Below, piece after piece: positions 35,169-46,298 of a stretch of 64,000 nt of DNA. The position numbers and the translations under genes were made by a program. The stretch is from Bacteroidota bacterium (GTDB taxonomy: Bacteria > Bacteroidota > Bacteroidia > Bacteroidales > Lentimicrobiaceae): positions 1-64,000 of the forward strand of contig WSXU01000003.1 of NCBI GenBank assembly GCA_009773455.1. The letters are read 5' to 3'. The notes beneath the pieces are model-generated. The model did no database searches, was not told the DNA's origin, and saw only the letters and a program-made list of their open reading frames with translations. Position 1 is the first letter of the stretch; every line of letters begins with the position of its first letter.

Positions 35169-35753
35169 TCAGTTCAGGTGTTTCTCTGCAATATCCCGGC
35201 CGGCCTGCAGTGCGTCGAGGTTTACCTGGATTATTTCATTTCCCTTTCTTCCGAAAATAGCACGGATGGCATCCTGTAATTCTTTATAATCAATATCCAG
35301 GAATGGGGAAGCAGCACCCAGAATTACCATATTGGCTGATTTAGGTGAGCCAAGTTCCCTGGCTATTTCATCTGCATCCAGGGCAATGTGTCGGGGTTGT
35401 GATTCAATCTCGGCCATCAGTTTGTCCAGTTCAGGGTAATTCCTGATGTTGATGTAAGGTTTGGTATTGGTAACCAGCCATCCTTCAGGTGAAAGCATGG
35501 GCAGGTACCTAAGCGATTCCATGGGTTCGACCGAAATGATCATATCCGCTTTGCCGAAAGGTATGAGGTCGGAGGCAATATCCCTGTCTGATATTCTCAG
35601 ATTGGATTGAACGTCGCCCCCCCGCTGGCTCATCCCGTGTACTTCTGCCTGTTTCAGGTGAAGCCCTGCCTTGAGGGCAGCAGTGCCGATCGTAGCAGCT
35701 ATTGATAATATACCCTGTCCGCCTACACCGGCGAGAATGATGTCTTTTTTCAT
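35169..35753 (-). CDS. iorB: Indolepyruvate oxidoreductase subunit beta
   Basis: The 194-residue subunit contains the gamma-domain signature of 2-oxoacid:ferredoxin oxidoreductases (IILAGVGGQGILSIAATIGTAAL at the N-terminus, GMSQRGGDVQSNLRI), which holds the CoA/acyl transfer region. With IorA it oxidises indolepyruvate and other aryl pyruvates, the transamination products of aromatic amino acids, to acyl-CoA, passing electrons to ferredoxin. Its ATG directly follows the iorA stop codon (TAA then ATG, zero spacing), so the pair is translationally coupled. The length is typical. Confidence 0.94.
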   Translation of the reverse strand: MKKDIILAGVGGQGILSIAATIGTAALKAGLHLKQAEVHGMSQRGGDVQSNLRISDRDIASDLIPFGKADMIISVEPMESLRYLPMLSPEGWLVTNTKPYINIRNYPELDKLMAEIESQPRHIALDADEIARELGSPKSANMVILGAASPFLDIDYKELQDAIRAIFGRKGNEIIQVNLDALQAGRDIAEKHLN

Positions 35754-37379
35754 TTATGCTTCTGCTTTTTCGGTTGCCTGATTTTTCTTTTCTTCCCGCA
35801 TTCTGCGTGTTAAGGTTTGGATGCACTCACGCCGCGGAATAATTACCGATACACCCTGGTAGGCTATTTCCTCCTTCATGATGGCCAGGTTTTCCTCGTG
35901 GTGTTTCTGAAGCGGGTTAAGAACCCTTATGTGCTCTTTACTGACCCCCAGAGCGAGGCAGATATCTTCGATTTTTCCGACAGCAGCAGAATCCTGGCCA
36001 CCTGTCATACCTGTAGTCCCGTTATCCAGTACCATAACCGTGATCGATGAACCGGCATTAACGGCATCCAGAAGGCCAGTCATACCCGAGTGGGTGAAAG
36101 TGGAATCACCGATTACAGCAACCGAAGGGATCAGACCGGCATCGGCTGCACCTTTGGCCATGGTGATCGAAGCCCCCATATCGACACAGGAATTAATGGC
36201 GTCGAAAGGCTCAAGTGCACCCAATGTATAGCAACCGATATCGGAAAATACCCTGCCTTTATAAAATTCGGACAAGGCTTCATTCAGGGCGTTATAGCTG
36301 TAAATGTGCGGGCATCCTTTACAGAGTGAGGGGGGGCGGCCGGTAACCAGTGAGGGGATATCCCGTCCACGGGTATCAGCCAGCCCGAGGGCAACAGCCA
36401 CGATGTTGGGATTCAGTTCACCATCGCGGGGAACAGTTCCGTCGAGGCGGCCTTTGATGGTTTTACCATTGTTGAGTAACCCCCTGAGCAGTTCTTCAAC
36501 CAGCGGATATCCGTCTTCGAGCACCAGCAGGCTGTCGCAGTTATCATAAAGATCTCTGATCATCTTTTCAGGCAAGGGATATTGCCCGATACGAAGTACA
36601 GGGTGAGGAACCTTATGGTCTTCGAAGTTCTCCATCAGGTAATTATAGGCAAGACCGCAGGTAATAATTCCCAGTCTTTTATCACTGTGGTCGATCAGGT
36701 AATTGAATGGTGATTCTTCTGAGGATTTTATAAATGCTGCCTGGTTGTTCAGCAGTGTTTTATATTGACGACGGGCATTGGCAGGCAGCAGAATAAACTG
36801 CTTCAGGTTATCGGGAAGTTTAAGGTCATTTTGTTTTCTGACTTCACGCCTTACGACGCCTGAACGTGAATGGGCGAGGCGTGTTGTGATGCGCATAAGT
36901 ACCGGAATCCGGAATTTCTCACTTAATTCAAAGCCCAGGTGTACCATATCGTAGGCCTCCTGCTGGTTGCCCGGTTCCAGTATGGGCATCAGTGCGAATT
37001 TGCCAAAGAAACGTGAGTCCTGTTCATTCTGTGACGAATGCATCGACGGGTCATCGGCGGCAACGACAATCAAACCTCCGTTTGCGCCGGTGATGGCAGA
37101 ATTTACAAATGCATCGGCGGCTACATTGAGCCCTACATGTTTCATGCATACCATGGCACGCTTTCCGGCATATGACATGCCGAGTGCAGTTTCCATGGCT
37201 GTTTTTTCATTAGCTCCCCAGGCAGCCACAATGTTCAGCGATTTAGCCTCTTTCGAGTGCATGACATATTCGGTGATTTCAGTGGATGGAGTCCCCGGAT
37301 AGGCATAAATGCCTGATATCCCGGCATCAATTCCGCCCTGGGCAATGGCTTCGTCGCCTAATAACAATAACTTCTGCAT
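35754..37379 (-). CDS. iorA: Indolepyruvate oxidoreductase subunit alpha (TPP-binding)
   Basis: The 541-residue subunit joins an N-terminal pyrimidine-binding domain (GDEAIAQGGIDAGISGIYAYPGTPSTEI at about 8-35), a central domain and a TPP pyrophosphate-binding domain (GDSTFTHSGMTGLLDAV and VLDNGTTGMTGGQDS, about 420-460). It has the CKGCPH motif near residue 356. Many archaeal IorA proteins end in a two-cluster ferredoxin domain (four Cys each). Here the protein ends with RRECIQTLTRR and no such cluster is present, so the electron route must use a separate ferredoxin. It catalyses oxidative decarboxylation of aryl pyruvates. The substrate range fits a peptide or amino-acid fermenter, as do the neighbouring ammonia-lyases and GdhA (inference). 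Confidence 0.95.
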   Translation of the reverse strand: MQKLLLLGDEAIAQGGIDAGISGIYAYPGTPSTEITEYVMHSKEAKSLNIVAAWGANEKTAMETALGMSYAGKRAMVCMKHVGLNVAADAFVNSAITGANGGLIVVAADDPSMHSSQNEQDSRFFGKFALMPILEPGNQQEAYDMVHLGFELSEKFRIPVLMRITTRLAHSRSGVVRREVRKQNDLKLPDNLKQFILLPANARRQYKTLLNNQAAFIKSSEESPFNYLIDHSDKRLGIITCGLAYNYLMENFEDHKVPHPVLRIGQYPLPEKMIRDLYDNCDSLLVLEDGYPLVEELLRGLLNNGKTIKGRLDGTVPRDGELNPNIVAVALGLADTRGRDIPSLVTGRPPSLCKGCPHIYSYNALNEALSEFYKGRVFSDIGCYTLGALEPFDAINSCVDMGASITMAKGAADAGLIPSVAVIGDSTFTHSGMTGLLDAVNAGSSITVMVLDNGTTGMTGGQDSAAVGKIEDICLALGVSKEHIRVLNPLQKHHEENLAIMKEEIAYQGVSVIIPRRECIQTLTRRMREEKKNQATEKAEA

Positions 37380-37579: not shown

Positions 37580-38176
37580 ATGAATTTTCTGGCCCATTTA
37601 TATCTTTCAGGCGAAAACAGGGAAGTTATCATCGGGAATTTTATTGCTGACCATGTCAAGGGCAATAAGATCATGACCTATTCACCCGGGGTCAGGGCTG
37701 GTATTTTGCTTCACCGGGCTATTGATCAGTTTACCGACAATCATCCTGTAGTAAAGCTGGCAGTGGAGAGGCTCAGGCCTGATTTCCGAAAATATGCCGG
37801 CGTTGTGGTTGATATGTATTTCGACCATTTCCTGTCGAATGGGTGGAATTCCTGGTCAGAGGAACCTCTCAGGTCATTTACCGAAAGGATGTACAGTATC
37901 ATAATTGCATCGACAGGCATTTTGCCGCCAAGGACAATGCATATGATTCCTTATATGATGAACCACGACTGGTTGGGTAATTATGGGAATTTTGAAGGGC
38001 TTAACCGTGCTCTTACCGGAATGGCGCGTCGTACACCTTTTTATTCTAATATGGAAACTGCGGCTGAAAGGCTGAAACAGGATTATGACTTTTTTGAAGA
38101 AAGCTTCGACGTTTTCTTTCCTCAGCTCATCCTGAATACAGGAAGGGTGCGCAATGAAATACTTCCCGGAGAATAG
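37580..38176 (+). CDS. acpH: Acyl carrier protein phosphodiesterase (AcpH-like)
   Basis: The 198-residue cytoplasmic protein begins MNFLAHLYLSG, followed by GNFIADHVKG, LHRAIDQFTDNHP and YFDHFLSNGW. These are the conserved His/Asp motifs of the AcpH (DUF479) family, a metal-dependent HD-like phosphodiesterase that removes 4'-phosphopantetheine from acyl carrier protein. Length and motif order match. The start is the ATG at 37580, preceded by a -7 box; an in-frame TTG two codons earlier is less likely. Confidence 0.88.
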   Translation: MNFLAHLYLSGENREVIIGNFIADHVKGNKIMTYSPGVRAGILLHRAIDQFTDNHPVVKLAVERLRPDFRKYAGVVVDMYFDHFLSNGWNSWSEEPLRSFTERMYSIIIASTGILPPRTMHMIPYMMNHDWLGNYGNFEGLNRALTGMARRTPFYSNMETAAERLKQDYDFFEESFDVFFPQLILNTGRVRNEILPGE

Positions 38177-38201
38177 GCGGGTTCATCCCTGTGTTCAATA
38201 A

Positions 38202-38230
38202 AAAAGTCCCGCTCATCCTGCGGGACTTTT
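38202..38230. terminator. Bidirectional terminator between convergent genes
   Basis: AAAAGTCCCGC and GCGGGACTTTT (perfect 11-bp arms, 7-base loop) have T-runs on both strands, so it serves both the acpH-like gene and gdhA. Confidence 0.88.
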
Positions 38231-38256
38231 CACTGTTACAAAAAACTGAATCGGGA

Positions 38257-39609
38257 TTAAACGAGGCCCTGTGCAAGCATGGCATCTGCAACCTTAACGA
38301 AACCTCCGATGTTGGCTCCGTTTACGTAGTTGATAAATCCGTCAGCATCTTTTCCGTATTTTACACATGTTTCATGAATGTCGCGCATGATCTGGTGCAG
38401 TTTGGCATCAACTTCTTCGCGTGTCCATGACAGACGCATTGAGTTCTGTGTCATTTCAAGACCTGAAACGGCAACACCACCGGCATTGGCTGCTTTACCA
38501 GGGCCGTAAAGGATTTTAGCCTTGAGGTATACTTCAACAGCTTCAGGTGTAGATGGCATATTGGCACCTTCTGATACAACATAGCAACCATTGGCTACCA
38601 ATGTCCTGGCGTCATCTTCATTAACTTCGTTCTGCGTAGCGCAAGGCAGGGCAACATCACACTTGATCATCCAGGGGCGTTTGCCTTCATGGAATTCACA
38701 ACCGTATTTGTCAGCATATTCCTTGATTCTTCCGCGTTTCACATTTTTCAGGTTCATCATGAAAGCCAGTTTATCGGCATCGATGCCTTTCGGATCGTGG
38801 ATAAATCCTGATGAATCGGAAAGGGTAACAACTTTACCACCAAGCTGGGTAACTTTTTCAACAGCATATTGTGCAACATTACCTGAACCAGAAACGGTAA
38901 CAACTTTACCTTTCAGACTGTCGTTGCGGGTTTTCAGCATTTCTTCTGCAAAATAGGTACATCCGTAGCCTGTAGCTTCAGGACGAATAAGACTTCCGCC
39001 CCATTCGCGTCCTTTTCCGGTAAGAACACCGGTAAACTCATTACGCAGACGTTTGTACTGTCCGAACATGAATCCGATCTCACGTCCGCCAACACCGATG
39101 TCGCCGGCAGGAACGTCAGTATCAGGGCCGATGTGACGGAAAAGTTCTGACATGAAACTCTGGGTGAATTTCATAACTTCATTATCTGACTTGCCTTTGG
39201 GGTCGAAGTCGCTACCACCTTTACCACCGCCCATAGGCAAAGTGGTAAGGCTGTTTTTCAATACCTGTTCAAAAGCAAGGAATTTCAGAATTCCGAGGTT
39301 AACAGTCGGGTGGAAACGCAATCCGCCTTTGTATGGACCAATGGCACTGTTCATCTCAATGCGGAAACCACGGTTAACCTGAACTTCACCTTTGTCATCC
39401 AGCCATGGAACACGGAAAAGGATAACTCTTTCGGGTTCAGCCATGCGTTCAAGTATCTTGGCATCTTTGTACTTCGGGTGCTCTTCGATAAACGGGATAA
39501 GTGATTCAGCCACTTCATGCACTGCCTGGTGAAATTCCAATTCACTCGGATTCTTGGCGATAACTTTCGCCATAAAATCATTCAGCTTCTGATCAAAAAC
39601 GTTTGCCAT
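38257..39609 (-). CDS. gdhA: Glutamate dehydrogenase (NADP-type, hexameric)
   Basis: The 450-residue cytoplasmic enzyme interconverts 2-oxoglutarate plus ammonia and glutamate. Motifs include RFHPTVNLGILKFLAFEQVLKN, then TTLPMGGGKGGSDFDPKGKS with the catalytic Lys in GGGKGG. TDVPAGDIGVGGREIGFM and RPEATGYGC follow. The Rossmann domain is VVTVSGSGNVAQYAVEKVTQLGGKVVTLSDSSG. The C-terminal region has GANMPSTPEA and NAGGVAVSGLEMTQNS. Length and motifs match the approximately 445-residue NADP-dependent small hexameric class. I start at the ATG at 39609 (MANVFDQKL), which fits the family; the frame is open 16 codons further upstream without similarity. Confidence 0.96.
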   Translation of the reverse strand: MANVFDQKLNDFMAKVIAKNPSELEFHQAVHEVAESLIPFIEEHPKYKDAKILERMAEPERVILFRVPWLDDKGEVQVNRGFRIEMNSAIGPYKGGLRFHPTVNLGILKFLAFEQVLKNSLTTLPMGGGKGGSDFDPKGKSDNEVMKFTQSFMSELFRHIGPDTDVPAGDIGVGGREIGFMFGQYKRLRNEFTGVLTGKGREWGGSLIRPEATGYGCTYFAEEMLKTRNDSLKGKVVTVSGSGNVAQYAVEKVTQLGGKVVTLSDSSGFIHDPKGIDADKLAFMMNLKNVKRGRIKEYADKYGCEFHEGKRPWMIKCDVALPCATQNEVNEDDARTLVANGCYVVSEGANMPSTPEAVEVYLKAKILYGPGKAANAGGVAVSGLEMTQNSMRLSWTREEVDAKLHQIMRDIHETCVKYGKDADGFINYVNGANIGGFVKVADAMLAQGLV

Positions 39610-39986
39610 AAAAATTAATTTTTTAGAATTAGTAGATTGGTTGAAATGATGGGTCAATATTAGAAAAACTTAACCGAAGCAATGCAAGCTGTTAACAGAA
39701 TTTCTGACTTTCCAAGTCTAAATTCAGTAAATTACGCAAAGATGGTGGGTGATTTTCGCAATATTGCAACCGGAAATTGTAATGTTAGTTCTCCTCCTGG
39801 AATTGTAAATGAGGTAAGATTACTTAAACCTGCAGTCACCAAATGGCATTTGCAGATTGATTTTATGGAAGCGATTTAAGCTACTTCATCGGGTCGGTGA
39901 TTGACCATTAGTATTTCCTGAGTGATCGGGAAGAGCTTAGACCTGCCAAGGCCAGACGAAGGCCATCATTTACCATTCGTTTATTT
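39610..39986. other. Intergenic region between gdhA and the response regulator gene
   Basis: No coding sequence is supported. It includes the upstream region of gdhA and the 3' side of the response-regulator gene. Confidence 0.5.
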
Positions 39987-40646
39987 TCAGACTTCAATCA
40001 GGTTGTTTCGGATGGCGAATTTAACCATATCAACGGTGGTTTTCAGGTTGATTTTACGCATGATGTTATTTTTGTGAGACTCTACCGTACGGATACTCAC
40101 AAAAAGCTTCTCAGCTATTTCCTTGTTGGTATAGCTTTCAGCAAACAATTTCAGCACTTCGACCTCACGGTCGCTCAGGCTACTGGTGGGGTGATTCCTT
40201 ATGGCCGATGCAGCGCCAGGCTGATCGAGGTATTTTTTGAGGATGATGCTTGAAATGGATTTACTGTAGTAATCATATCCATTGCGTACCGTCATGATGG
40301 CTTCTATCAGTTCATTTCTGTCGGCGTCTTTGCTGAGAAACCCTTTAGCGCCGGCCTTCAGAGTTCGCAGAATAAAGCTTTCCTGAACCGTCATGGCCAT
40401 GATCAGTATCTTGATCTGGGGATGCTCACGTTGTATGATCCTGATCATATCAATGTCATGATCGCCGGGCTCATATGTGTTCAGAAGTATTACATGGATA
40501 GGGAGTATCCTCAGTTTTATCAGTAACTCAGACAGGTTACGGACACAACCCATTACTGTAATATTCTGGCTGTCAGATAATAACGAGGTTATACCTTCGC
40601 AAACTATATGGTGGTCGTCAACGAGAATGACTTCAATTTTGTTCAC
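39987..40646 (-). CDS. NarL/LuxR-type response regulator lacking the phospho-acceptor Asp
   Basis: The 219-residue protein has a receiver domain (about 1-125) and a LuxR-type HTH (about 155-215: LSDREVEVLKLFAESYTNKEIAEKLFVSIRTVESHKNNI). The acidic pair Asp10-Asp11, Thr86 and Lys106 of the receiver are kept. The phospho-acceptor position carries Asn56 (HVILLNTYEPG, codon AAC), not Asp. Normal two-component phosphorylation is therefore impossible, and regulation may be by protein partners or the aspartate-independent state. It stands alone, divergent from the PPDK/receiver fusion gene at 40776. Confidence 0.93.
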   Translation of the reverse strand: MNKIEVILVDDHHIVCEGITSLLSDSQNITVMGCVRNLSELLIKLRILPIHVILLNTYEPGDHDIDMIRIIQREHPQIKILIMAMTVQESFILRTLKAGAKGFLSKDADRNELIEAIMTVRNGYDYYSKSISSIILKKYLDQPGAASAIRNHPTSSLSDREVEVLKLFAESYTNKEIAEKLFVSIRTVESHKNNIMRKINLKTTVDMVKFAIRNNLIEV

Positions 40647-40775
40647 CGTGTTAAAACTGAATTTAGGACGACGAAATTAATCTAATTCGTTAAAACATCA
40701 AAGGTCAATTAAAGGAACTATTTATCAGGTTTATAACACCACGACCAATCTTTTCTTAATTTAGTGGCATTGAAT

Positions 40776-43700
40776 ATGCCTGATATGACCGATAATACAG
40801 ATAAAAGCCCCGACATCAGGAAACTGATGCATGAACAAGGTGAGCGCCTTAAAGAACTGGCAGCGATAAACCAGACTACCCAGATACTGCGTGAAGGGAA
40901 ACCCATTGATGAAACCCTTCAGCAACTGGCAATGATATTTCCAGAAGCCTGGCAGTACCCGGCATTCACTTCAGCCAGGATTAAATTCGGAGCCAAGGAA
41001 TACAAGTCGGTTGGCTTTCAGGAGAGCCGGTGGTTGCAGCGTCAGCATTTTGAAACCATCAATGAACGGAAGGGGGCCATTGAAATTTTCTATACCAAGG
41101 AATTTATAGCTGAAGATGAAGGACCCTTCCTGAAAGAGGAGAGGCACCTGATCAACAACCTCGCCAACATGATTACCGGTTACCTCAACAGTCAGGAGGC
41201 GAAGGAATTGCTCCGCAAAACCCATCCCAAATGGGCAGCCGAGGATAAAAAAAAGGAAAAGGAGGTGCAGCCCACTTCGAGTAAGCAGCTGTTGCAGCGG
41301 TTTCTTAACAAGAACAACTATGACCGCGATGTTTACCATGATCTGATGCCTTTCAAGGTTAAGGAAATATTACTGGTTGCCAATCTTTACGATGCCTACA
41401 GCATCGAAAAGGAAGGGCGTTTCTCGGAGCATGTGCTGGGTGAATATCATCAGCTCAGCCTGACCTCACTGCCAAGGATTACGGGAGTTTCATCCGAAGA
41501 GGAGATATTTGCGCAGCTTCAGTCGAAGCATTTTGATTTCATCATATTCATGGTTGGGGTCGAGAAAAATCTTCCGCTGGCCATCAGTTCCAGAATAAAG
41601 GCTGAATTTCCGTATATACCGATTTTCCTGTTGCTGAATAACAACAAGGATATTTCGTTTTTCATGGAAAACAAACTAATGCGGAATGTTGACCGCATAT
41701 TTGTATGGAACGGTGAATCCAAGGTTTTCTTTGCCATGATCAAACACATTGAAGATAAAATCAATGTTGATAATGACACCAAAGTTGGGCTGGTAAGGGT
41801 TATCCTGCTGGTTGAGGATTCGCCGCAGTACTATTCACGATACCTCCCGTTGCTTTATAGTATCGTGCTTGAACAAACCAGGCGAATTATTGAGGATGTC
41901 AGTACCGACGAGCTTTATAAAGTTCTGAGGATGCGGGCCCGCCCGAAAATATTACTGGCTTCGAGTATTGAGGAAGCCAAGGAAATTCTGAACAAGTTCA
42001 GGGACAATATGCTTTGTCTCATTTCGGATGTAAAGTTTGATAAAAATGGTAAGGCCTACAGTCAGGCTGGATTTGAACTTGTGAAATATGCCCGTGAGCT
42101 TATCGGGGAACTGCCCACCATCATTCAGTCGCATGATCCGGAAAACGCACGGATGGCGTATCAGCTCAAGACTACTTTTATTGACAAGAATTCTGAAACC
42201 CTGGTTCAGGACTTCAAGAGTTTCATTACCCATTACCTTGGATTTGGAAATTTTATTTACCGCGATAATGAAGGCAGTCAGATTGCCGTGGCAAGGTCAC
42301 TGAAAGAGTTTGAATCACTGCTCAGGACCATTCCCGATGAATCGCTGATCTATCATGCCAGGAAAGATCATTTTTCTTTATGGCTGATGGCACGGGGCGA
42401 AATACAGGTTGCCAAGATCATCAATCCCGCCAAGGTCACTGACTTCGACAGCCCCTCTAAACTGAGGGCTTACCTGATTGAGGTCATTCAGCAGTTCAGG
42501 AACGAACAGAACAGGGGTAAGGTGATTCCGTTTGAGGAATCGGCCATCCTCGACGAAAGCAATGTTGTCAGCCTCAGTTCCGGATCTCTCGGAGGTAAAG
42601 GCCGCGGACTTGCTTTTATTAATACGCTCATCAATAATTTTGATTTTGAACAATTATTGCCCAATATCCGCATCCGCACACCCAAAACCTCCATTATCGG
42701 TACAGATGAATTCGAGTATTTTATCGAAAGGAATAAACTTCACGACAAAGTGGTAAACAGTCTTGATTATGAAGAGATTAAAATACTCTTCATGAACGCT
42801 TCCCTGACTGAAACGCTGGTTAAGAGACTGAGGATTCTGTTGAAACACATTACCAATCCCATTGCCATCAGGTCGTCGGGGCTTTTTGAAGATTCACTGA
42901 TGCAACCGTTTGCCGGCATCTTTGAGACCTATCTTCTGCCAAACAATGATCCGGATTTCAATACCCGGTTGCAGCAGACCATGGATGCCATCAAACTGGT
43001 ATATGCATCTGTTTATTCCAAGATAGCCAGGGGTTACATCGAAGCCATCCATTATAAAATCGAAGAGGAAAAGATGGCTGTTATCATACAGGAGGTTGTC
43101 GGCAACAGGTTTGAGAATGTTTATTATCCGCACATCAGCGGTGTTGCCCAATCATACAATTATTATCCATTTGCCCACATGAAACCTGAAGAAGGCTTTG
43201 CTGTGGCTGCATTGGGCCTTGGTAAACAAGTGGTTGAAGGGGAGAAGGCTTACCGGTTTTCACCAAAGTATCCTTCAACAGAGATTAATAGCCCGCAGGA
43301 TCAGTTTAAAAATTCACAGGTGGATTTCTTCGCTGTTGATCTGAATAAAAAGGAGATCAACCTTCTCGAAGGTGACACGGCAGGTCTGATCAAACTGGAA
43401 ATTGAGGATGCCGAACGCCATGGAAATCTCAGACATATGGCGTCAGTGTATGATTATGAGAATCACCGGATAGTTCCGGGACTCACACAACCCGGACCAA
43501 GGATCATCAATTTTTCCAATATATTGAAATATAATTATATACCATTGGCCGGGGCCATTGATGTTGTGCTGGATGTGGTGAAAGAGGCCATGGGGGCACC
43601 GGTGGAGATAGAGTTTGCCGTTGACCTGAACCGCGATGAACATCTGCGGGCTTCTTTCTATGTTCTGCAGATCAAGCCTCTGATCGGATCAATGCAGGAT

Positions 43701-44249
43701 TACAGTTTCGATGCTGAATCCATTGATCCGGGAAGTGTACTTCTTTTATCGGAAAAGGGGATGGGTAACGGACTCATTAACGATATCACTGATGTTATTT
43801 ATATTGATATTTCAGCTTTCGACAAGCGAAAGACGGAAGAAATGGTGGGAGAAATAGAATTGCTAAACAGGAAGATGATGCATGAAAACAGGAAATACCT
43901 GCTGATAGGTCCCGGCCGCTGGGGTACGCGCGACAAATGGATAGGTATTCCTGTTAACTGGCCGCAGATTTCCTCAGCAAGGGTGATTGTTGAGACCAGC
44001 CTTGAAGGATATCCGCTTGATGCCAGTTCAGGTTCACACTTTTTCCATAATGTTACTTCGATGAATGTCGGTTATTTCTCTGTTCAGCAGGAATTGTCCG
44101 GATCGTTTATCAAATGGGAGATACTGGATCAGCAGCCGCTGGTTCAGCGGACAACCTACTTTAAACATGTGCGTTTTGAGAAGCCAATCTCGATCAGGAT
44201 GGACGGGAAGAAACGCATTGCCGCGATTACATGGGAGAAGAAGGACTAA
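40776..44249 (+). CDS. Multidomain signalling protein: GAF-like/receiver-like regions fused to a PPDK-type ATP-binding domain
   Basis: The product is 1157 residues. N-terminal residues (about 15-150) are GAF-like. Residues about 190-325 form a degenerate receiver-like domain (VKEILLVANLYDAYSIE). A second, fuller receiver (about 340-490) has VILLVEDSPQYYSRY and the Asp in LISDVKFD (about 416), with a long insert between them. Residues about 590-960 resemble the nucleotide-binding ATP-grasp part of pyruvate phosphate dikinase/PEP synthase: GSLGGKGRGLAFIN, IAIRSSGLFEDSLMQPFAGIFET and VEIEFAVDLNRDEHLRASFYVLQIKPL. The phospho-His swivelling domain and the PEP/pyruvate TIM barrel of true dikinases are absent. 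A conserved C-terminal domain with GPGRWGTRDKWIGIPV follows. The role is unknown; ATP-driven phosphotransfer controlled by the receiver is a possibility. I start at the ATG at 40776; an in-frame GTG at 40764 is an alternative. Confidence 0.88.
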   Translation: MPDMTDNTDKSPDIRKLMHEQGERLKELAAINQTTQILREGKPIDETLQQLAMIFPEAWQYPAFTSARIKFGAKEYKSVGFQESRWLQRQHFETINERKGAIEIFYTKEFIAEDEGPFLKEERHLINNLANMITGYLNSQEAKELLRKTHPKWAAEDKKKEKEVQPTSSKQLLQRFLNKNNYDRDVYHDLMPFKVKEILLVANLYDAYSIEKEGRFSEHVLGEYHQLSLTSLPRITGVSSEEEIFAQLQSKHFDFIIFMVGVEKNLPLAISSRIKAEFPYIPIFLLLNNNKDISFFMENKLMRNVDRIFVWNGESKVFFAMIKHIEDKINVDNDTKVGLVRVILLVEDSPQYYSRYLPLLYSIVLEQTRRIIEDVSTDELYKVLRMRARPKILLASSIEEAKEILNKFRDNMLCLISDVKFDKNGKAYSQAGFELVKYARELIGELPTIIQSHDPENARMAYQLKTTFIDKNSETLVQDFKSFITHYLGFGNFIYRDNEGSQIAVARSLKEFESLLRTIPDESLIYHARKDHFSLWLMARGEIQVAKIINPAKVTDFDSPSKLRAYLIEVIQQFRNEQNRGKVIPFEESAILDESNVVSLSSGSLGGKGRGLAFINTLINNFDFEQLLPNIRIRTPKTSIIGTDEFEYFIERNKLHDKVVNSLDYEEIKILFMNASLTETLVKRLRILLKHITNPIAIRSSGLFEDSLMQPFAGIFETYLLPNNDPDFNTRLQQTMDAIKLVYASVYSKIARGYIEAIHYKIEEEKMAVIIQEVVGNRFENVYYPHISGVAQSYNYYPFAHMKPEEGFAVAALGLGKQVVEGEKAYRFSPKYPSTEINSPQDQFKNSQVDFFAVDLNKKEINLLEGDTAGLIKLEIEDAERHGNLRHMASVYDYENHRIVPGLTQPGPRIINFSNILKYNYIPLAGAIDVVLDVVKEAMGAPVEIEFAVDLNRDEHLRASFYVLQIKPLIGSMQDYSFDAESIDPGSVLLLSEKGMGNGLINDITDVIYIDISAFDKRKTEEMVGEIELLNRKMMHENRKYLLIGPGRWGTRDKWIGIPVNWPQISSARVIVETSLEGYPLDASSGSHFFHNVTSMNVGYFSVQQELSGSFIKWEILDQQPLVQRTTYFKHVRFEKPISIRMDGKKRIAAITWEKKD

Positions 44250-44623
44250 GTTGTTGGGAAAGGGTAACGATTGATGGGTAGGTATCCATCCATTCGGCTT
44301 TCGATGTCGGGTGTTTGAGATTTGGGGTTTGACTTTTGACGTTCAATCCGGCATTTTAGTAATCACTTACTTACTTGCAGCGTAGGCTGCTTGAGTGTGC
44401 ATTGCTCCGTACCCCGGTTTCTTCCTGTAATTTGTTTAAATCCCATGATTTTTTTTTCTTATATTTATTGACCGACATACAATGCTAATCTGATTTTTAC
44501 TGTACGCTTAAGATTAAATTTTAGGAAACGGGTATTTACTATAAACCCCGAAGGGGTGCAATGATAATAGACGGAATCATCTGAAAAATATACGGAACCC
44601 CGAAGGGGTGAAATACTTAAGCC
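44250..44623. other. Region with the left flank of the first IS200 copy
   Basis: The sequence from about 44365 is nearly identical to that from about 45079 (left flank of the second copy). No gene is present. Hairpins ACCCCGAAGGGGT lie at 44545-44557 and 44597-44609. Confidence 0.6.
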
Positions 44624-44640
44624 ATGGCAGGAAGGATTTG
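44365..44640 (+). repeat. Direct repeat copy A (IS200 left end)
   Basis: Roughly 275 bases match 45079-45353 with a few substitutions, offset about 714 bases. The match includes two ACCCCGAAGGGGT hairpins and the start of the transposase gene. Confidence 0.8.
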
Positions 44641-44807
44641 GCTCTTTTTCTTATTCACATTCGCAAATAGATGATGTTTACAGATATATTTTAAATCAGG
44701 AAGAACATCATCGTAAAATAACCTTTAAGGAGGAATATCTGGATTTCTTACATAAGTTTAAAGTTGAATTTAATGAAACGTTCCTGTTTGAATTTTATGA
44801 AGATTAA
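44624..44807 (+). pseudogene. tnpA: IS200-type transposase remnant with internal deletion
   Basis: This copy begins with the transposase ATG (ATGGCAGGAA) and then jumps straight to the 3' part of the gene. Residues QEGFGSFSYSHSQIDDVYRYILNQEEHHRKITF can be read out of frame with the ATG. The protein would end FEFYED. Relative to the intact copy at 45337, 281 bases between a 12-bp direct repeat (TCATGGCAGGAA) are missing. The deletion removes the HUH motif and shifts the frame, so it is inactive. Right-hand hairpins lie at 44877-44889 and 44927-44939. Confidence 0.88.
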
Positions 44808-45336
44808 TTGTCTGACCTGATAATTGCAACGGGTTACGGGTGTCTTTCATCAGGTTTTAGAAATAATAATAATGTCACCCCTTCGGGGTTGACACAAAGC
44901 CCCGAACGCTGTTCCATAATCATATCAGCCCTTCAGGCTTCATTTTACTGAACTCTGCCTTATTTATCCAATCTCTGTTAATAAACAACATTTTTTCAGG
45001 ATCCGGACTGTAAGTGTATGATATCCCATTTTGTTTGCAGGATGATGAAGACCCGTGCTGTCTGGCGTTTTACGGATCATATACTTACTTACAGTGTGTG
45101 CCGCTTGAGTGTGCATTGCTCCGTACCCAGGTTTCTTCCTGTAATTTGTTTAAATTCCATGATTTTTTTTCTTATATTTATTGACCGACATACGATGCTA
45201 ATCTGATTTTTACTGTTCGCTTAAGATTAAATTTTAGGAAACGGATATTTACTATAAACCCCGAAGGGGTGCAATGATAATAGACAGAATCATCTGAAAA
45301 ATATACGGAACCCCGAAGGGGTGAAATACTTAAGTC
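44808..45336. other. Region between the two IS200 copies
   Basis: It contains the right end of the first copy (hairpins ACCCCTTCGGGGT at 44877 and AGCCCTTCAGGCT at 44927) and the left flank of the second copy. No gene is supported. Confidence 0.6.
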
Positions 45337-45353
45337 ATGGCAGGAACATATTC
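45079..45353 (+). repeat. Direct repeat copy B (IS200 left end)
   Basis: Partner of the repeat at 44365-44640, with hairpins ACCCCGAAGGGGT at 45258-45270 and 45310-45322, directly before the intact transposase. Confidence 0.8.
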
Positions 45354-45945
45354 ACAGATTTATATTCAGGTTGTTTTTGCAGTTAAATGCCGGCAGGCAA
45401 TGTTAAACAAACCCTGGAGAGAGGAAGTTTTTAAATACATGGCCGGAATAATTAAAGCAAAAGGTCAGAAACCGATCATTGTAAAAGGTGTAGCCGATCA
45501 TGTTCATCTGTTTATCGGGCTGAAGCCTTCCATGGCATTGTCTGATCTGATCAGGGACGTTAAGAACAATACCAGCAATTTCATCAATGAAAGAAAATTT
45601 AATGGTGGGAAATTCTCATGGCAGGAAGGATTTGGTTCTTTTTCTTATTCACATTCGCAAATAGATGATGTTTACAGATATATTTTAAATCAGGAAGAAC
45701 ACCATCGTAAAATAACCTTTAAGGAGGAATATCTGGATTTCTTACATAAGTTTGAAGTTGAATTTAATGAAAAATTCCTGTTTGAATGGTATGAAGAATA
45801 ATTCCCTTTCCTGATGGTGGAGATTTTAGTTGTAATATATAGTTTTAAACAGGATTACCCATCAAGAATCATTTCACCCCTTCAGGGTTGATCAATAACC
45901 ATTAATGCTTTTCAACAATCATTTCAGCCCTTCGGGCTTAAAATT
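45250..45945 (+). mobile_element. IS200/IS605-type insertion sequence (tnpA only)
   Basis: The unit holds one small transposase gene, two hairpins on the left and two on the right (ACCCCTTCAGGGT at 45876, AGCCCTTCGGGCT at 45926), with no long inverted repeats and no tnpB. This is the arrangement of the IS200 group, which moves as single strands through subterminal hairpins. Exact ends are not determined. Confidence 0.75.
45337..45801 (+). CDS. tnpA: IS200-family Y1 transposase
   Basis: This 154-residue HUH endonuclease of the Y1 type has the start TYSQIYIQVVFAVKCR, the HUH motif VADHVHLFIGLKPS and the catalytic Tyr segment DVYRYILNQEEHH. The C-terminal signature FKEEYLDFLHKF precedes LFEWYEE. 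The family cuts and rejoins single DNA strands at hairpins near the ends. The length is typical. This copy appears intact, unlike the neighbouring one. Confidence 0.93.
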   Translation: MAGTYSQIYIQVVFAVKCRQAMLNKPWREEVFKYMAGIIKAKGQKPIIVKGVADHVHLFIGLKPSMALSDLIRDVKNNTSNFINERKFNGGKFSWQEGFGSFSYSHSQIDDVYRYILNQEEHHRKITFKEEYLDFLHKFEVEFNEKFLFEWYEE

Positions 45946-46298
45946 CTATGATGATAGTCCACAGGTTAATTCAGGAGCCCAGCCATTTTTACCATATCCT
46001 GATTAAGGTTGTTTGATGTCAGGTGTTTGACTTATGGATTTTATTCCGACATGCTCAACTCCCCATTGGTGTTGTTTAACAGACTAAAACCATTATCTGA
46101 AATTTGTTATTTTTTGGTTTTTTAATTTTCAGCGACTTTGTCCTTTTTTGAGCTGCTGACATTCAGGATTCAATATCAAATGCCAATTTCAGGGGCATGC
46201 ACGGCTCATTAAAATTATTTTCAAAAACTGTTTGTTAATTAAAAAAAAATTCCGTCCTTTGCAGACCGAAAAATAAAACTTACTATAAGCTTATAGTC
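45802..46298. other. Intergenic region upstream of rpmB
   Basis: It contains the right-end hairpins of the IS200 copy and then the promoter region of rpmB. No gene is present. Confidence 0.55.
46230..46260 (+). promoter_or_regulatory. Likely rpmB promoter
   Basis: TTTG (46230-46233), a 19-base A-rich spacer and GTCCTTTG (46253-46260) fit the Bacteroidota -33/-7 layout, although the first two bases of the -7 box differ from TA. The ATG is 38 bases downstream. Confidence 0.5.

Follow-up and report, generated by a model that had tools for sequence, protein, structure and literature searches.

Gene neighbourhood and domain architecture

In the window, i.e. the whole stretch of 64,000 nucleotides analysed, a single long open reading frame (ORF) lies next to genes for a family-I glutamate dehydrogenase (GDH) and a NarL/LuxR-type regulator, in the order GDH, regulator, ORF (Table 1). 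The ORF product, hereafter form A, is encoded divergently from GDH and not downstream of it. Its domains follow each other in the order GAF-like, REC1, REC2, DUF5752-like, pyruvate phosphate dikinase (PPDK) ATP-grasp and a C-terminal domain named here after its GPGRWG motif. PPDK_N, at residues 608–973, is the sole Pfam match in the protein, and the Pfam scan gave no match in the last 190 residues. Structure prediction, one of the checks proposed in the first-pass annotation of this DNA, yielded a full-length AF2 model with a mean pLDDT of 84.8 (72-sequence alignment), in which the GAF-like domain, two receivers and the ATP-grasp can be told apart and the C-terminal domain forms a unit of its own. 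The ORF, Pfam, the AF2 folds and full-length orthologues all agree with the proposal of that annotation that GAF-like, receiver and PPDK_N parts are fused in one protein. No Rfam elements were found across positions 38000–46000.

Table 1. Coordinates of the genes, domains and residues discussed
Feature	Position	Strand	Residues	Basis or remark
Family-I GDH	38257..39612	-		PF00208/PF02812; conserved neighbour
NarL/LuxR-type regulator, degenerate receiver	39987..40646	-		Asn56 in place of Asp; lies between form A and GDH
Form A gene	40764 (GTG) or 40776 (ATG)..44249	+	1161/1157 aa	Frameshift-free ORF
GAF-like sensory domain, N-terminal	40800..41228	+	13-155	AF2 fold about 16-153
REC1, degenerate receiver-like domain	41355..41789	+	198-342	AF2 about 200-342; double-receiver match 3luf
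REC2, canonical receiver	41790..42248	+	343-495	Z 16.5 to ComE receiver
REC2 phospho-acceptor codon	42027-42029	+	D422
DUF5752-like helical linker domain	42276..42518	+	505-585	Weak in the window protein
PPDK-type ATP-grasp	42528..43688	+	589-975	PF01326, E 1.4e-38; PEP synthase alignment; conservation
C-terminal domain, GPGRWG and S-x-G-[ST]-H-F-F	43716..44246	+	985-1161	Predicted swivelling phosphohistidine-type fold (AF2)
Proposed phospho-carrier	44037..44039	+	His1092	Codon CAC; start of helix 1091-1099

The GAF-like domain varies in copy number from one to four among form A relatives and also occurs in PAS/histidine-kinase proteins and a nucleotidyltransferase protein of the window's genome. 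Three to four tandem copies are present in the form A proteins of loci L113, L134, L135, L137 and L173, which reach 1529–1571 residues. A 282-residue protein encoded elsewhere in the window's genome (L249 500-1345, G000:C65) fuses a GAF-like domain to a nucleotidyltransferase. The segments previously described as receiver-like proved to be two receiver folds of different standing, REC1 being degenerate and REC2 canonical. Indeed, REC2 displays the five-stranded receiver fold with the acidic pair, Asp, Thr/Ser and Lys that defines response regulators, and its quintet (E351, D352, D422, S456 and K475) is present in 85 out of 85 form A and form B proteins. DUF5752 was matched in 12 of the 20 relatives scanned, with E-values down to 6e-5. 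Form A resembles response regulators with enzymatic output, such as PleD and PorX, in placing receivers, one of them with a canonical quintet, ahead of an effector, but differs from them in that its output is a dikinase-type ATP-grasp/putative His module.

In a profile alignment to PEP synthase, K612, R703, E948, E950 and Q969 of form A align with catalytic residues of the ATP site; we take them to correspond to K22, R92, D321, E323 and Q335 of PPDK. The catalytic Lys, Arg, Glu and Gln are conserved among form A relatives. At the position which we presume to be that of PPDK R337, all 42 form A proteins have Lys (Lys971), whereas all form B and D proteins examined have Arg. As judged from these residues, the ATP site of form A is intact.

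The C-terminal GPGRWG domain

The PEP/pyruvate barrel (PF02896) is absent from form A, as the first-pass annotation had noted: the ORF stops at the C-terminal domain and Pfam finds no barrel. The same annotation held that the phosphohistidine swivelling domain is lacking too. At the sequence level, the C-terminal domain displays neither a PF00391 match nor the G-G-x-T-x-H motif, searches of PDB, Pfam and NCBIfam returned chance matches at most, and its alignment matched none of 25 PF00391 domains in hhalign. Foldseek, run on the model of the domain, gave nothing better than E 0.02. Predicted in isolation, the domain reached a pLDDT of 91.2 and a pTM of 0.89. For this model, VIA-align 2 places at the top PPDK phosphohistidine domains, which reach Z 6.3, together with rifampin phosphotransferase at 6.1 and EI-Ntr at 5.3; these rows span Z 5.0–6.3, and a Z of about 6 is a level that the tool calls common and that is indecisive alone. 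Further rows comprise DRTGG, the pyruvate kinase C-terminus, aconitase, the CCT apical domain and LD-carboxypeptidase, most of which we take to belong, like PPDK phosphohistidine domains, to the SCOP swivelling beta/beta/alpha class.

Stronger evidence comes from the full-length model. Together, its ATP-grasp and C-terminal domain superpose on N. meningitidis PEP synthase (2ols; Z 26.3, 361 residues, 4.3 A, model residues 589-1159 to 4-467), rifampin phosphotransferase (5hv3; Z 26.4, 599-1158 to 8-866) and PPDK (1dik; Z 18.6, 585-1159 to 9-511), with the ATP-grasp contributing much of Z in each case. In the AF2 model the C-terminal domain runs strand-helix-strand-helix-strand-[His]-helix-strand and His1092 opens the helix 1091–1099, so that by topology, i.e. 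by the order of strands and helices rather than by residue-level superposition, His1092 would take the place of the catalytic His of PPDK and PEP synthase. All 79 rows of one alignment, MAGs of several phyla among them, and all 72 rows of another have this His, and R1052, W1053 and D1057 are invariant or nearly so in aligned relatives. One deviation is seen in the form B protein of the window species (L006 2807-5803, G000:C5), where Gln (CAG) replaces the otherwise invariant His of S-x-G-T-H-F-F; form B of congeners keeps the His (CAT in L058).

The GPGRWG domain is thus most likely a diverged phosphohistidine swivelling domain. Given the predicted fold, its place in the joint superposition and the invariant His1092, the earlier view that the phosphohistidine domain is missing is most likely wrong, and the substrate barrel is the only part of the dikinase layout missing from form A. 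The domain is widespread and has no Pfam or NCBIfam model; as it is probably of this diverged type, the label ‘PEP synthase’, derived from PPDK_N, would be misleading for such proteins. Like PEP synthase and PPDK, form A combines the same ATP-grasp catalytic residues with a swivelling phosphohistidine-type domain predicted in the same spatial place; in contrast to them, it has no PEP/pyruvate barrel, its core is preceded by GAF-like and receiver domains, and its putative His domain is unrecognisable by sequence, GPGRWG and S-x-G-[ST]-H-F-F replacing G-G-x-T-x-H. Rifampin phosphotransferase (RPH) shares the superposable ATP-grasp and His domains and likewise has a dikinase-like core with a non-PEP acceptor, as we propose for form A. 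However, form A lacks the intervening rifampin-binding domain, its C-terminal domain following directly on the ATP-grasp, and it occurs in a different gene context; the NCBIfam RPH model scores 15.6 bits on form A versus a cut-off of 999.

Family forms and linkage to glutamate dehydrogenase

Four forms of the family can be defined, all having the ATP-grasp and C-terminal domain (core) in common: form A (GAF-RR and core, about 1160 residues), form B (RR only and core, about 1000 residues), form C (core only, about 580 residues) and form D (GAF-like and core, about 1065 residues). A C-terminal nucleotidyltransferase was found above the Pfam cut-off in two of three form D proteins scanned (L035 and L036). 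Forms C and D retain the core and have no recognisable receiver (REC2). Full-length orthologues of form A, 46–88% identical, occur across the window's family and order, and form A is therefore no chance fusion. Matches were found in 19 out of 19 genomes searched of the family Lentimicrobiaceae and in 173 out of 198 genomes of the order Bacteroidales, mostly form A, form B or both. Form A is a conserved Bacteroidales subfamily of a wider family, members of which were also found, in a scan of named genomes, in MAGs assigned to Spirochaetes, Cloacimonadota, Riflebacteria, Myxococcales, Bdellovibrionales, Gemmatimonadota, Krumholzibacteriia and Neomarinimicrobiota, although some of these assignments may be wrong. 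Many genomes carry forms A and B next to each other; in the window species, A is found here and B on another contig.

The distribution of the fusion and its neighbours, which the first-pass annotation had suggested examining, revealed, besides these orthologues, a linkage to GDH that was absent from that annotation. In Bacteroidota, gut Bacteroides included, GDH is one of the main routes by which ammonium enters glutamate. In a phylum-wide draw of 198 genomes, a family-I GDH gene lies within 5 kb of 29 out of 34 form A/B genes, against a chance expectation of 0.7% per gene (a rough binomial, the sampled genomes being related). Of these genes, 27 follow the GDH gene directly and in the same orientation at a distance of no more than 5 kb, and in almost every case of no more than 600 bp. 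A second GDH type, 33–37% identical to the GDH of the window, lies at most 5 kb away from 7 of 9 form C genes and 13 of 18 form D genes. The linkage recurs in other phyla (L158, L167, L168, L172, L174, L175 and L176), with GDH adjoining or almost adjoining the gene of the family in MAGs labelled Spirochaetaceae, Cloacimonadota, Bdellovibrionales, Gemmatimonadota and Krumholzibacteriia. As the family is nearly always beside GDH genes, it probably controls GDH, and its setting points towards nitrogen metabolism. Conversely, form A/B is missing from 35 of the 61 sampled genomes with family-I GDH, implying that GDH does not always need it, and no GDH alignment column separated linked from unlinked GDHs at the thresholds used.

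The regulator between GDH and form A had been noted previously as a neighbour without a phospho-acceptor, and this proved to be common: of the 14 distinct copies adjacent to form A, 13, including that of the window, have lost the Asp, which L099 keeps. Orthologues beside form A were found in L101, L102, L128, L130, L131, L133, L135-L137, L143, L145 and L152; in a Prolixibacteraceae-like group (L131, L133, L135, L136 and L137) GDH, regulator and form A are all co-directional. The shared loss of the Asp suggests a conserved, phosphorylation-independent regulator. KorA/KorB, NuoE/NuoF and other redox genes, named from their sequences, are also frequent neighbours of the family. In the window, genes resembling an indolepyruvate:ferredoxin oxidoreductase pair (IorB/IorA) are located near GDH at 35169-37379 on the reverse strand, while in other loci 2-oxoacid oxidoreductase KorAB instead adjoins form A or B.

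A possible link to earlier work is provided by a study whose title states that the GDH activity of B. thetaiotaomicron is affected in trans by gene(s) downstream of gdhA (Baggio & Morrison 1996). Form B of Bacteroidota shares with these gene(s) the position directly downstream of family-I gdh, whereas the window gene is a form A, adjacent to but divergent from GDH. A downstream segment of roughly 3 kb reportedly brought back GDH activity when present in trans in E. coli, and a segment of that size would fit the 1000-residue gene of form B. By its gene position in other Bacteroidota, form B is the obvious candidate for the trans-acting factor, a strong lead rather than proof. Literature searches for the gene pair, for BT1970-1973 and for PPDK_N combined with response regulators found nothing relevant.

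Proposed function and alternatives

From the domains, predicted folds, conserved residues, distribution and linkage described above, we infer, with a probability of roughly 45%, that form A is a receiver/GAF-gated, dikinase-type ATP-to-His phosphotransferase controlling GDH. In this scheme, the GAF-like and receiver domains would sense the nitrogen or energy state and the signal of a partner kinase (by phosphorylation of Asp422) and would gate the ATP-grasp, which would phosphorylate His1092 on the swivelling domain in the manner of PPDK, PEP synthase and rifampin phosphotransferase. Because there is no substrate barrel, we propose an external acceptor for the His-phosphate, most likely GDH itself, whose activity would be switched by the transfer. 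REC2 is more likely an input than an acceptor, since the core and the link to GDH persist in forms C and D, where no REC2 is recognisable. An ATP-using phosphotransferase gated by its receiver had been one possibility in the first-pass annotation; it now appears the likeliest kind of protein. No complete known enzyme family fits form A.

Alternatively, form A might be a receiver-gated metabolic enzyme, only co-regulated with GDH, whose ATP-grasp/His core phosphorylates or activates some small molecule from the glutamate/2-oxoglutarate/pyruvate node, with the GPGRWG loop as its binding site. Small molecules are the substrates of most enzymes that combine PPDK_N with a His domain, the frequent redox neighbours would suit such a role and a substrate could be bound by R1052, W1053 and D1057, all of them invariant or nearly so. 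However, the ATP-grasp and the His domain come without any additional substrate domain, the accessory modules (GAF, REC and nucleotidyltransferase) are regulatory, and the common neighbour of the family is GDH of two different types, so that we consider a metabolic enzyme unlikely, though a serious contender. Transfer from His-phosphate to Asp is standard two-component chemistry, and a built-in phosphorelay from ATP through His1092 to Asp422 of the protein's own REC2, or of the REC2 of a tandem form B, would make the protein a substitute for a histidine kinase, with the receivers as its signalling route; the invariant REC2 quintet and the many loci with forms A and B side by side are consistent with this. 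Yet Asp422 is not a universal acceptor, as forms C and D have the core and lie near GDH but show no recognisable receiver, and the receiver has no downstream output domain except the ATP-grasp, which makes a phosphorelay rather improbable.

A non-catalytic role is conceivable as well: as an assembly factor or scaffold for GDH, with ATP binding as the switch, form A would act without phosphotransfer. The trans effect, as worded in the 1996 title, does not imply covalent modification, and the His is lost in form B of the window species, but the ATP-grasp catalytic residues and His1092 are invariant in nearly all other members, and we regard a scaffold as quite improbable. That form A is an ordinary PEP synthase or PPDK, mis-split or truncated, has hardly any likelihood: against the PPDK_N match and weak NCBIfam PEP synthase matches far under the cut-off stand a barrel-less ORF, dozens of relatives that also end after the His domain, and a distinct, PF00391-containing PPDK encoded in the same genome. 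Truncation or mis-assembly of a PPDK is rejected in view of the identical architecture in dozens of independent genomes together with this separate PPDK.

The trans-acting role reported in 1996 thereby gains a candidate family, a candidate catalytic residue (His1092) and a likely chemistry, and the control of GDH in Bacteroidota becomes a directly testable question. Somewhat more tentatively, the family may represent a new class of protein phosphotransferases, a dikinase-derived ATP-grasp/phosphohistidine kinase that acts on GDH and is controlled by receiver and GAF modules, joined in form D by a nucleotidyltransferase. Alongside histidine kinases and PTS enzyme I, such a class would offer a further way of transferring His-phosphate to proteins, and it would supply the missing mechanism for the control of GDH in Bacteroidota. 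The nucleotidyltransferase fusions possibly form a second branch of this control network, one that acts by nucleotidylylation. Finally, the window's genome encodes a further barrel-less, dikinase-like protein of 1380 residues, which combines PPDK_N with a PEP-utilizers domain (L007, G000:C96).
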